Positions 11,671 to 15,913 of a DNA stretch of 64,000 nucleotides are shown piece after piece (position 1 is the first letter of the stretch; every line of letters starts with the position of its first letter). The notes under the pieces were generated by a model that made no database searches, was not told the origin of the DNA, and saw only the letters and a program-made list of their open reading frames with translations. The translations under genes were made by a program, and so were the position numbers. The DNA comes from Sneathiella sp. HT1-7 (GTDB lineage Bacteria > Pseudomonadota > Alphaproteobacteria > Sneathiellales > Sneathiellaceae): NCBI RefSeq assembly GCF_020731145.1, contig NZ_JAJFZN010000001.1, positions 992,001 through 1,056,000 of the forward strand, in the 5' to 3' direction.

Positions 11671-12090
11671 ATGGCGCGAATATTGATTGCAGAGGATGAG
11701 GCCGCTCTTCGGGAGTTTGTCAGTCGCGCCTTGACCCATCATGGGCATGATGTCGTCGCTGTGGCAGACGGCGCGGAGGCGCTGGCGACCCTGCAAAAAG
11801 GGGAAATGTTCAACCTTCTGCTCTCAGATATTGTGATGCCGATAATGGATGGCATTGCACTTGCGCTTAAAGTGACCAAGGACTTCCCCGATCTCAAGGT
11901 TCTCATGATGACGGGATATGCGGCCGAAAGACAGCGGGCCTATAACCTTGAGATGCTGATCCATGATGTCATCGCAAAGCCTTTTACGCTCGATGAGATA
12001 TGTGAGAAAGTCAGCGAAGCACTTAAGAGTGATCGGGCGGTTCTGAAACCCGCCACGACGAGCGATGAAGGACTTCGGTCCAAAAAATAG
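11671..12090 (+). CDS. cpdR: Cell-cycle response regulator CpdR
   Basis: A stand-alone receiver domain of 139 aa with no output domain. Acidic residues ILIAEDEA, the phospho-acceptor aspartate in LLLSDIVMPIMDG and the conserved lysine in VIAKPFTLDEI are all present. The segment MMTGYAAERQRAYNLEMLIHDVIAKPF is very characteristic of CpdR. In alphaproteobacteria, unphosphorylated CpdR acts as an adaptor that brings substrates to ClpXP protease during the cell cycle, with phosphate delivered through ChpT. Its place after hpt is commonly seen. A hairpin with a T tract follows the gene. Confidence 0.88.
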   Translation: MARILIAEDEAALREFVSRALTHHGHDVVAVADGAEALATLQKGEMFNLLLSDIVMPIMDGIALALKVTKDFPDLKVLMMTGYAAERQRAYNLEMLIHDVIAKPFTLDEICEKVSEALKSDRAVLKPATTSDEGLRSKK

Positions 12091-12234: not shown

Positions 12235-14043
12235 GTGACCGTCGAACGTGTAGTAATGTTTTGTCTGCTTTGGCTGACTTGCTTTGTGATTCTGCCAGTG
12301 CAGATCGCATCGGCGCCGAATGCGTTTCAACCCGAAGGGCCGGATGCGTTTATGCGCTTGGAACGGGTGAATTTGCTGGTAGAGACTGGCGACTGGTATG
12401 ATGGCCATATCGCCCGTGCCGCCGGTGAAGGTGGGGCAGATATTCACTGGACGCGGCCAATGGATCTTCTCATCATTGGTGCAGCAGCGCCGATCATGCC
12501 ATTTATGAGTACTCATGATGCCATCGAAACGGCAGGTGTTGTTCTACCGGCGCTGATGTCACTGTTACTCGTCCTGGTATGTATATGGGCGGTTATCCCG
12601 TTAATGCAGCCGGGAAACCTGTTCTCGATCATCATTCTTCTCGCCGTTCAGCCGGTTATTCAGAACTATTTTCACATCGGACGGGCGGATCATCATATGG
12701 TTCTGGCGGTGCTGACGGGGGCTGTTCTGGGCTGCATGATCCGGCTTAACGCCCATTACGGATTGTCTCGCGACGCGTTCATTGGCGGGATGTTGAGCGG
12801 CCTTGGTTTATGGATCAGCCTTGAATTCCTGATAGTCTTCGTTCCGGTTACGCTGGGCGTTGGTCTTTGCTGGCTCATCTGGGGGAAAGAATGGCGCCGC
12901 GTTAACAGAGACTTCGCAATGGGTACGGTTCTCGTGTGTTTGGCGGCAATGGCGACGGATGTAATGCCGGAAAGCTGGCTGATTGCGCGCTATGACCGGA
13001 TATCGATTGCCCAGCTATTCTTGGTAGTGTGCCCCTTTTTCTTCTGGTCCGTGATTGCCGAAATTTGTGACAGAAGGGGCCAGACTATCGGACGGATTAC
13101 CGGGGCCGGAGTATTTGCTATTGTATGCCTTAGCCTGATTCTGTTTTATTTTCCTGATCTTCTTGTCGGACCAGTGGCGGAGGCGGATCCACGTATCGGA
13201 CCAATATGGCACGATAAAGTAAGCGAAATGCTGCCTTTGCTAGGCAATACCCGGATGATCATACTCAATTGCCTTTTGCCATTTATTGCCATTGTTTATG
13301 GCTGTTTCGTTTTGTTTGGAAGAAAACATCTGGAGCGTCGACAAATGTGGATGCGGTTGTTGCCGGTATTGATCTGTACGGGCGCCCTCGCGCTATTTCA
13401 TATGCGGGCATCGCTTTATCTCGCGGTGGTCGGTGTGATTGCTGCGGGCCCGCTTCTGGAATACTCCCTGAGCCGCGTCGCCAGCCACTATAGCGGATGG
13501 AGAAATAGTGCAACGGGACTTCTGGTTCGCGCCGCCATTATTCTGGGGCCGTTTTTCCTGGCCGTATTGGTCGGAACGGTGAGCAATGGTCTGAAACCTT
13601 CAGAGGCAATTGCTGCGGTAAAACCAACAGCAGCAAAATGTAACGCGGCAGAAATTGCGACATTTCTAAGCGACGACGAGTTTATCCGTGGACGCGGCGT
13701 TCTCAAATTTGCCAACAATCTTGATTATGGCCCAGAGCTCATATATCGCACGCCGCATCATTTTCTTGCTGTCCCGTATCATCGAAATGGCGATAGTATT
13801 TTCGACACCCATGCTCTTTTAACCGCGAAAGAATATTCGAAAAGTGACAAAATTCTTCGAAAGTATGACATTGACTATATCTTAATATGTCCGGATGATT
13901 CCTCGCAATCCTATTTTCAGGAGTCAAATTCGCAGGAAGTTCTCTATAATCGCCTACTTGCCGGGAGTTTCCCAGATAACCTAACGGAGATTGATGTGCC
14001 GTCTCCTTGGAGACTGTTCGAAGTTAGGAATGGTAAAGAATGA
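12235..14043 (+). CDS. STT3-like GT-C integral membrane glycosyltransferase (putative)
   Basis: A 602-residue polytopic membrane protein. The first loop has PEGPDAFMRLERV (about residues 33-45) followed by DWYDG and HWTRPMDLL (71-79), the acidic motif layout of oligosaccharyltransferase STT3 relatives. GRADHHMV (149-156) is a second acidic motif. About ten further helices end near residue 450. A soluble, probably periplasmic tail contains YRTPHHFLAVPYHRNG and YDIDYILICPDD. It starts at GTG with AAGGA 8 nt upstream. The next gene overlaps by 4 nt. By analogy it could transfer a lipid-linked sugar to a periplasmic acceptor, but donor, acceptor and activity are unknown. Confidence 0.6.
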   Translation: MTVERVVMFCLLWLTCFVILPVQIASAPNAFQPEGPDAFMRLERVNLLVETGDWYDGHIARAAGEGGADIHWTRPMDLLIIGAAAPIMPFMSTHDAIETAGVVLPALMSLLLVLVCIWAVIPLMQPGNLFSIIILLAVQPVIQNYFHIGRADHHMVLAVLTGAVLGCMIRLNAHYGLSRDAFIGGMLSGLGLWISLEFLIVFVPVTLGVGLCWLIWGKEWRRVNRDFAMGTVLVCLAAMATDVMPESWLIARYDRISIAQLFLVVCPFFFWSVIAEICDRRGQTIGRITGAGVFAIVCLSLILFYFPDLLVGPVAEADPRIGPIWHDKVSEMLPLLGNTRMIILNCLLPFIAIVYGCFVLFGRKHLERRQMWMRLLPVLICTGALALFHMRASLYLAVVGVIAAGPLLEYSLSRVASHYSGWRNSATGLLVRAAIILGPFFLAVLVGTVSNGLKPSEAIAAVKPTAAKCNAAEIATFLSDDEFIRGRGVLKFANNLDYGPELIYRTPHHFLAVPYHRNGDSIFDTHALLTAKEYSKSDKILRKYDIDYILICPDDSSQSYFQESNSQEVLYNRLLAGSFPDNLTEIDVPSPWRLFEVRNGKE

Positions 14044-15044
14044 ACAAGACCGATTTGATCGAAAAGCCAGAGATGGCAATGCCGATACCGGAGCATAGGG
14101 TGACCGGGGCGTTGGCTGTCATGATCCCCTGCCTCAATGAAGAAATGACAATCGGCACCGTTGTCCGGGATTTTCGCGCGGCATTGCCGGAGGCGCGAAT
14201 TGTCGTCTGTGACAATGCGTCGACAGATAAAACTGCCGAAGTCGCTAAAACTGCCGGTGCGGAAGTAATCTATGAGGATATGCCCGGAAAAGGGAACGCG
14301 ATCCGCCGCCTGTTTTCGGATATTGAGGCGGATATCTATCTGATGGTGGATGGCGACGCCACCTATGAAGCTTCCCTTGCGCCGGTATTGGTGGATCATC
14401 TTTTGAAACGGCGACTGGATATGGTTTGTGCCAAGCGCGTGGCAACCGGTCAGGCCGCCTACCGCAAGGGGCATGTGCTGGGTAATCGGATGTTCTCTGG
14501 CATTGTTGCACGGGTATTCGGCCGCCGTTTCGAGGATATTCTGACCGGATACCGGATTTTTTCACGTCGGTTCGTCAAATCATTCCCGATCCTCTCCGAG
14601 GGGTTCGAAATTGAAACCGAACTAACCATTCATGCGCTGGAACTCAATATGCCTGTGGCCGAAATCGCGAGCACCTATATAGAGCGCCCGGAAGGCTCTG
14701 CCAGCAAGCTTAATACTTTCTCGGATGGATTAAAAATCACCAAACTGATCGTCAAGCTGATTAAGGATGAACGTCCGATGACATTCTTCGGGGGCCTGTT
14801 CCTGTTGCTGGCAATGATATCAATCATTCTCGCGACACCTGTCGTATTTACCTTTCTGGAGACGGGGCTGGTACCGCGCTTTCCTACCGCTATTCTGGCA
14901 AGTGCTTGCATGCTGTTATCATTTCTATTTCTGGCATGTGGATTTATTCTTGATTCCGTCACGCGCGGGCGGCGGGAAAGAAAACGACTTTCCTATCTCT
15001 CGATTGCGGGTCCGGCTTCAATTAGGGCGCAACGCACAAAATGA
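14040..15044 (+). CDS. GT2 family, DPM1/ArnC-like polyprenyl-phosphate glycosyltransferase
   Basis: The GT-A domain has VMIPCLNEEMTIGTVV, VVCDNASTDKTAEVA, the PGKGNAIRR segment and the DGDATY metal-binding motif. A receptor segment SEGFEIETELTIHAL follows, and then two C-terminal transmembrane helices (about residues 246-270 and 280-302). This is the plan of dolichol/undecaprenyl-phosphate sugar synthases, which load a sugar onto the lipid on the cytosolic face. The start overlaps the STT3-like gene by 4 nt and the stop overlaps the small EamA gene by 4 nt, so the three products are likely made together. Confidence 0.82.
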   Translation: MNKTDLIEKPEMAMPIPEHRVTGALAVMIPCLNEEMTIGTVVRDFRAALPEARIVVCDNASTDKTAEVAKTAGAEVIYEDMPGKGNAIRRLFSDIEADIYLMVDGDATYEASLAPVLVDHLLKRRLDMVCAKRVATGQAAYRKGHVLGNRMFSGIVARVFGRRFEDILTGYRIFSRRFVKSFPILSEGFEIETELTIHALELNMPVAEIASTYIERPEGSASKLNTFSDGLKITKLIVKLIKDERPMTFFGGLFLLLAMISIILATPVVFTFLETGLVPRFPTAILASACMLLSFLFLACGFILDSVTRGRRERKRLSYLSIAGPASIRAQRTK

Positions 15045-15388
15045 GTAAAGATATCCTCATCCTCATTATGCCGTTCATTATTTCAGGTGGGCAGGTTCTG
15101 TTCAAAATTGCTAGCCGGGATGTGGCAGCCTTTGATCATAACTCTTTGGTCAGACTTTCGATGAATGGCTACTTTATTGTCGCCCTGATCCTGTATGGAA
15201 TTGCAACATTACTTTGGGTCTATATTCTTAAGCATTTTCCGCTGAGTAAGGCGTATTTGTTCATGGGGCTCAGTTTTATCCTGGTCCCTGTGATGAGTTA
15301 TATTTTCTTGAAAGAGCCGCTAAGCCTTCGGTTTATGGCTGGCGCCTTTTGTATTGTTTTCGGCATTTGGCTCGCCCGAGCGGCCTGA
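15041..15388 (+). CDS. Small four-helix EamA/SMR-type membrane protein (ArnE-like)
   Basis: A 115-residue protein with four hydrophobic helices and the terminal segment FLKEPLSLRFMAGAFCIVFGIWL, as in half-size DMT proteins such as ArnE/ArnF and EmrE. Full-size EamA transporters are more than twice this length. Because it overlaps a polyprenyl-phosphate glycosyltransferase gene and follows an STT3-like gene, a role as flippase for the lipid-linked sugar is a reasonable inference. A drug efflux role is the alternative. Confidence 0.65.
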   Translation: MSKDILILIMPFIISGGQVLFKIASRDVAAFDHNSLVRLSMNGYFIVALILYGIATLLWVYILKHFPLSKAYLFMGLSFILVPVMSYIFLKEPLSLRFMAGAFCIVFGIWLARAA

Positions 15389-15391
15389 GAA

Positions 15392-15913
15392 TTACAATAC
15401 CCGGAAGAACTGGTAGAATACCACAAAACCTGCGACAGCGATGGCGACGCCATAGGGAAGTTTTAGGCCGAGGGCGGTTCCTGTTTGGAGATGCGGAGCC
15501 CGCGTTCTTAAGACTTTTACAAAAATCCAGTCGATCCCATTTGATATCATTGGGTTGCGCGACAGAATAATTGGCAACACATAAGCAAGAGCCAGGGCGC
15601 CGCCTGCTAGGCAAGTCATCAACAGAAGGAGAATTAGATGGTCCGGGCCGGCCCATAGCGCCAAAGCCGCGAGCAGTTTGACATCGCCGCCGCCCAGCCA
15701 GCCAAGGGCAAATATCATAATCCCGACAACAAGAACGCCCATGCCGCATAGCAAATGCCAGGGAAGATTGGCCCAGTCACCGGCGATTGTCGCTTGTAGC
15801 AAATAGAGCGCTGCAATGATCAGCGGCAGCAAATTCGGAATTCGGCGGGAGAAAACGTCCCATAGCGCAGCTATAAGAACCAAACCACCGGCTGACATCA
15901 TCAGGACAGGCAT
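15392..15913 (-). CDS. cpaA: Prepilin peptidase, CpaA-like (A24 family)
   Basis: A 173-residue polytopic membrane protein containing WLGGGDVKLLAAL, the GxGD-type aspartyl protease motif of A24 prepilin peptidases, and an N-terminal aspartate in LIAALWDVFSRRIPN. It lacks the N-methylation domain of PilD, as CpaA proteins do. CpaA cleaves leader peptides of Flp/Tad pilins at the inner membrane. No tad genes lie nearby. A perfect 8-bp inverted repeat lies 26-47 nt upstream of the start. Confidence 0.8.
   Translation of the reverse strand: MPVLMMSAGGLVLIAALWDVFSRRIPNLLPLIIAALYLLQATIAGDWANLPWHLLCGMGVLVVGIMIFALGWLGGGDVKLLAALALWAGPDHLILLLLMTCLAGGALALAYVLPIILSRNPMISNGIDWIFVKVLRTRAPHLQTGTALGLKLPYGVAIAVAGFVVFYQFFRVL

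Follow-up and report, generated by a model that had tools for sequence, protein, structure and literature searches.

We propose that three adjacent genes of the marine alphaproteobacterium Sneathiella sp. HT1-7 very probably encode a three-component module for periplasmic glycosylation, in which the terminal transferase is of the STT3 type and an ArnE-like flippase takes the place of GtrA. By computation we observed the gene order, the overlaps, the family identities, the fold, the motif conservation and the recurrent association of the components. The window, i.e. the whole stretch of DNA that was analysed, covers 64,000 nucleotides.

In the proposed mechanism, where enzyme activities, flipping, metal use and a single-sugar donor are all predicted, the GT2 would use a nucleotide sugar to load a hexose onto polyprenyl phosphate on the cytoplasmic side of the membrane. 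The polyprenyl-phosphate hexose would be flipped outward by the ArnE-like protein, which probably acts as a dimer, and the STT3/AglB-type GT-C would transfer the sugar to an acceptor outside. In the GT-C, D37, D152, H154 and E331 would hold the metal, with R391 near the lipid phosphate. We infer the single-sugar donor from the type of the flippase and from the lack of a further glycosyltransferase in the cassette. The GT-C is encoded together with a GT2 and a proposed flippase, and these component types (lipid charging, flipping, transfer) match published three-component systems (PMC11127046, PMC8035078).

Gene order and occurrence in Sneathiella

Three co-directional open reading frames were confirmed in the window, and both junctions consist of the ATGA overlaps that had been claimed for them (Table 1). 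The GTG start and the N-terminus of the GT-C are conserved among its relatives.

Table 1. Features of the cassette, its borders and related loci. Positions without a locus number refer to the window
Feature	Position	Strand	Remarks
GT-C glycosyltransferase, proposed terminal sugar transferase	12235..14043	+	602 aa, GTG start, STT3/AglB-type fold
D37 of GPDAFMR, candidate counterpart of AglB D47	12343..12345	+	Asp in 47/47
HWTRPMD, family-specific motif, first outer loop	12445..12465	+	W72, D77 47/47; H71, R74 43/47
DHH: D152, H154 = AglB D161, H163 (metal ligands)	12688..12696	+	D152 46/47, H154 45/47; aligned with AglB NDHH
E331 of VSEM, counterpart of AglB E360	13225..13227	+	47/47; aligned with TIAEV
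R391, counterpart of AglB R426	13405..13407	+	47/47; aligned with GQNRF
C-terminal periplasmic alpha/beta domain of GT-C, residues about 467-602	13633..14040	+	AlphaFold model; 3vu0 Z 10.7
GT2 polyprenyl-phosphate sugar synthase (predicted), AglJ/DPM1-like	14040..15044	+	334 aa, D104-G-D106, two C-terminal TM helices
ATGA overlap GT-C/GT2	14040..14043	+	4 bases
ArnE/ArnF-like (half-EamA/SMR) membrane protein, proposed flippase	15041..15388	+	115 aa, four helices
ATGA overlap GT2/flippase	15041..15044	+	4 bases
Left border: single-domain response regulator, outside cassette	11671..12090	+	conserved border, informative Sneathiella loci
Right border: prepilin peptidase-like gene, outside cassette	15392..15913	-	conserved border; named by sequence reading
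Class I SAM methyltransferase genes	L021:4760-5479, L022:8876-9595, L023:8034-8753, L025:8127-8846
FAD amine-oxidase-like genes	L067:9301-10875, L068:9515-11251, L070:11570-13171, L071:6054-7643, L073:7748-8833
Second GT-C-like family	L117:2409-3914, L106:9733-11388		also in L111, L119, L126

Of 24 Sneathiella genomes, 11 carry the GT-C. Ten of these also have a close orthologue of the 115-aa protein, the contig of the eleventh ending before that gene, and all 13 genomes without the GT-C lack such an orthologue. All informative Sneathiella loci have the same two border genes, the response regulator and the prepilin peptidase-like gene. In two sister genomes (G015 and G013; loci L196 and L197) the site is cleanly empty and the border genes are directly adjacent, so the trio behaves as a cassette that is either cleanly present or cleanly absent. 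The nine Sneathiella GT-C proteins in the tree group together with full support, and the branch leading to their clade is long.

The overlap between the GT-C and GT2 genes, of 4 to 65 bases, is present in all ten Sneathiella loci with a visible junction. The overlap between the GT2 and flippase genes, of 4 bases in the window and in locus L024, is not general; gaps of 33 and 85 bases separate these genes in L028 and L029, respectively. The claim that stoichiometric synthesis is likely was therefore not upheld for the three genes, only the first of the two overlaps being conserved.

A class I methyltransferase gene (Methyltransf_11) lies between the GT2 and flippase genes in four complete loci, and a fifth locus with this gene, L027, is cut by the end of the contig. 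The inserted enzyme may methylate the sugar or the lipid intermediate; given its presence in some species, the sugar is perhaps sometimes methylated.

A foreign origin of the genes by base composition was considered and found unsupported (GC 0.506, 0.519 and 0.445 for the three genes, window mean 0.519). The prepilin peptidase-like gene on the opposite strand ends 3 bases from the cassette. A pilin as acceptor is conceivable from this neighbour, but the neighbour also occurs without the cassette.

The GT-C glycosyltransferase

STT3 enzymes N-glycosylate proteins in archaea and eukaryotes. Single-sequence searches with the GT-C gave no match in Pfam, including STT3 (PF02516) above its cut-off, and none in the PDB, so that its kinship is visible only by profiles and fold. 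The archaeal STT3 family TIGR04154 (archaeo_STT3) was matched by 12 of 17 GT-C relatives (best 5e-13). In the PDB, a profile of the GT-C family picked up the Archaeoglobus AglB C-terminal domain (3vgp, E 1.3e-4; 3vu0, E 4.7e-4), and hhalign aligned the GT-C with A. fulgidus AglB over 486 columns (95.8%, E 7.8e-9), using an AglB sequence that agrees with 3waj over its 614 residues.

The AlphaFold model of the GT-C (pLDDT 89.4, pTM 0.91) has the STT3-type fold, C-terminal globular domain included. Its best match in the PDB is Archaeoglobus AglB, 3wak (Z 27.1, 548 residues, rmsd 3.5 A), followed at lower scores by STT3 (Z about 23), DPY19 (19.9), PglB (17.6) and ArnT (16.5). Of the original prediction of an STT3-like GT-C analogous to ArnT, the STT3 part stands, as STT3/AglB type, and the ArnT part does not. 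The soluble periplasmic tail that it described corresponds to the modelled alpha/beta domain matching the AglB C-terminal domain.

In AglB, residues D47, D161, H163 and E360 serve metal binding and catalysis, and the WWD motif serves recognition of the +2 Ser/Thr (PMC7226087). Residue conservation was counted over 47 diverse GT-C homologues. D37, W72, D77, E197, E331 and R391 are invariant, R41 of DAFMR is conserved in 45, and H153 is nearly invariant. D152, H154, E331 and R391 are both conserved and aligned with their AglB counterparts D161, H163, E360 and R426. D37 is two columns out of register with AglB D47 in the hhalign alignment, and from the sequence the equivalence of the two is probable. 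The acidic motifs DAFMR and DHH are accordingly real and conserved, as had been claimed, and the lack of conservation that was to count against the claim was not seen.

The sequence NLDYG of the GT-C aligns with WWDYG of AglB (family consensus 'nnldyg' under 'wwdyg' in the profiles). The WWD sequon-binding motif is absent here, the position being variable across the 47 homologues. NLDYG is followed by the family-specific motif YHRN, with Y515 in 46, H516 in 41 and R517 in 45 of the 47 sequences. Based on the fold ranking, the aligned and conserved active-site residues and the absence of WWD, we regard the GT-C as a predicted STT3/AglB-type enzyme that has kept the active site and lost the sequon reader.

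The GT2 and the small membrane protein

The GT2 matches PF00535 (3e-16). Its best family is TIGR04182, AglJ, with 206.9 bits, below the curated equivalog cut-off of 325; the ArnC equivalog gives 27.2 bits and its cut-off of 529 is not reached. Two TM helices are estimated at residues 252-270 and 285-303. With these features the protein resembles a membrane-linked GT-A polyprenyl-phosphate sugar synthase, in agreement with the synthase plan first suggested for it, and we assign it as an AglJ-like polyprenyl-phosphate hexosyltransferase, the activity being predicted from sequence.

For the 115-aa protein, the EamA family PF00892 scores above the cut-off (36.4 bits), and ArnF (47.8 bits) and ArnE (35.4 bits) score below their equivalog cut-offs of 99 and 92, respectively. 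Both ArnE and ArnF are matched by all ten orthologues. The modelled structure is SMR-like, with EmrE and Gdx at the top of a fold search that was weak (best E 0.03) and serves as support only. These matches and the four helices bear out the ArnE-type assignment made earlier and are those of a small multi-span flippase, flipping being predicted. No GtrA gene (PF04138) was found in the cassette or in the whole host genome (3.83 Mb), which makes the 115-aa protein the natural flippase candidate.

The family assignments also bear on the possibility that the GT-C transfers an oligosaccharide. The lipid-linked first sugar would then be extended before transfer, a route known from Haloferax, in which AglJ begins the chain and other enzymes lengthen it. 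The GT2 is closest to AglJ and the GT-C closest to AglB, which speaks for extension. We nevertheless consider it unlikely, as the cassette holds no further glycosyltransferase and flippases of the ArnE/GtrA type are linked to monosaccharide donors.

Comparison with known systems

The claim that the three proteins make, flip and transfer a sugar is supported by the families, the fold and the gene context, but AglJ/AglB with an ArnE-like flippase is a closer analogy than the ArnC-ArnEF-ArnT system to which the trio was likened. With the latter it shares the division of labour and the resemblance of the 115-aa protein to ArnF and ArnE; it differs in a GT2 that is only distantly ArnC-like, in a GT-C nearer to AglB and in one small gene instead of two. 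GtrA-GtrB-GtrX and other multi-component transmembrane glycosylation systems likewise have clustered genes for a GT-A synthase with C-terminal TM helices, a small flippase and a GT-C, whereas Sneathiella has an ArnE-like protein for GtrA and a GT-C of the STT3/AglB type.

Compared with the GT66 enzymes AglB, STT3 and PglB, the GT-C has the same full-length fold with a C-terminal domain and the same D/DxH/E/R pattern in the active site. It differs in lacking WWD, in falling below Pfam STT3 detection, in having HWTRPxD and YHRN, and in its link to a monosaccharide-type flippase. Haloferax AglJ is the top-scoring family for the GT2 but not its equivalog (207 bits against 325). The C-mannosyltransferase DPY19 also combines an STT3-like fold with a polyprenyl-phosphate monosaccharide, but it is metal-independent (PMC10154233), whereas the Sneathiella GT-C keeps the OST metal ligands. 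The rhizobial Rgt system as closest kin was found unsupported, RgtF being a GalA transferase in that literature and not a flippase.

The general mechanism of three-component glycosylation is already known. The open-access literature searched did not yield the combination of an STT3/AglB-type transferase with an AglJ-like GT2 and an ArnE-like flippase, though this is no proof of its absence, and the papers searched held no biochemistry for the GT-C family. A published phylogeny has few bacterial STT3/AglB homologues (PMC4973528). The present family is a large STT3-type family across Alphaproteobacteria, without a Pfam model or a family name in the databases searched. As a compact and genetically clean unit with cassette-free sister species, the Sneathiella cassette is suited for the study of donor, flippase and acceptor.

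The acceptor

A protein acceptor and a glycan or lipid acceptor are held nearly equal by us, and both are sub-hypotheses of the three-component reading, not alternatives to it. Decoration of lipopolysaccharide core, lipid A, O-antigen or another envelope glycan, comparable to Arn, Rgt and Gtr, is given a chance not far from even. Most characterised three-component systems modify glycans, Rgt GT-Cs decorate lipid A and core in Alphaproteobacteria, and patchy presence with a swappable cassette fits serotype-like variation. This reading has to account for the clearly weaker fold match of ArnT (Z 16.5 against 27.1), and the Arn, Rgt and Gtr systems are not known to keep the full OST metal site.

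A protein acceptor is a serious possibility which we rate only slightly lower: the GT-C would be a diverged bacterial oligosaccharyltransferase-like enzyme attaching one hexose to proteins that are secreted or surface-exposed, with an acceptor site that differs from N-X-S/T. The top fold matches are the protein glycosyltransferases AglB and STT3 and then DPY19, with ArnT lower, the OST metal ligands are retained, and DPY19 provides a precedent, its STT3-like fold acting on protein with a polyprenyl-phosphate monosaccharide as donor (PMC10154233). However, the WWD reader is gone, being NLD in the GT-C, no candidate glycoprotein gene lies within the cassette, and GT-C acceptors are not readable from the fold. 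More tentatively, this alphaproteobacterial STT3/AglB branch might perform protein glycosylation with a single polyprenyl-phosphate hexose, a new kind of acceptor site and interchangeable GtrA and ArnE-like flippases.

The GT-C family beyond the genus

A draw of 385 alphaproteobacterial genomes gave 56 with the GT-C, 74 with an AglJ-like GT2 and 33 with both, where about 11 were expected (odds ratio 10); related genomes inflate these co-occurrence counts, and an approximate count at family level, with both genes in 20 families, points the same way. An AglJ-like GT2 above threshold is missing from 23 of the 56 GT-C genomes, and most GT-Cs of this draw stand alone, with no GT2 or flippase nearby. 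The expected conservation of the trio is therefore seen in part: synteny is strict within Sneathiella and the association is found again in other groups, but the class has many solitary GT-C homologues, and these common lone copies without conserved synteny weigh to some extent against the original prediction.

A second draw spanned the phylum. Of its 29 loci, 22 have GtrA no more than 1.5 kb from the GT-C; an AglJ-like GT2 is equally close in seven, all of which also have GtrA. Pfam confirmed GtrA in all seven loci tested. The GT-Cs being mostly alone in the first draw and often linked to GtrA in the second, adjacency depends on lineage. Sixty GT-C loci of equal size, the locus of the window being counted twice and some others more than once, were compared with 43 control loci: 23 of the 60 have an adjoining GtrA and 11 an adjoining GT2, and none of the 43 controls has either. 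GT-C, GT2 and GtrA stand side by side in several genomes of one family. That the three genes are accidental neighbours with no common function, as the many solitary homologues elsewhere could suggest, is highly improbable in view of these controls, the pairing in several families, the strict co-inheritance in Sneathiella and the retained GT-C/GT2 overlap.

The GT-C tree implies no fewer than 14 changes of neighbour type, and in other genomes an unrelated GT-C accompanies the AglJ-like GT2 together with GtrA. The parts of the module are thus exchanged, and in Sneathiella the ArnE-like protein is joined by a GT-C of the STT3 type. The unrelated GT-C was considered as kin of the window GT-C and rejected, there being no detectable relation in the one member compared (hhalign probability 1.3%).

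Some further observations were made at these loci. A second GT-C-like family occurs beside AglJ-like GT2 and GtrA in many Alphaproteobacteria, and two members scanned gave no significant Pfam match. In two families, a FAD amine-oxidase-like gene lies between GtrA and the STT3-like GT-C, and its product could modify the lipid-linked sugar. Tandem STT3-like GT-C paralogues, two side by side, are found in L032, L033, L070, L071, L085, L092 and L098, which suggests several acceptors or linkages. Homologues on plasmids (AP026900.1 and NZ_CP155751.1) are annotated as 'hypothetical protein' and 'AcrB/AcrD/AcrF family protein', and the latter annotation looks wrong.
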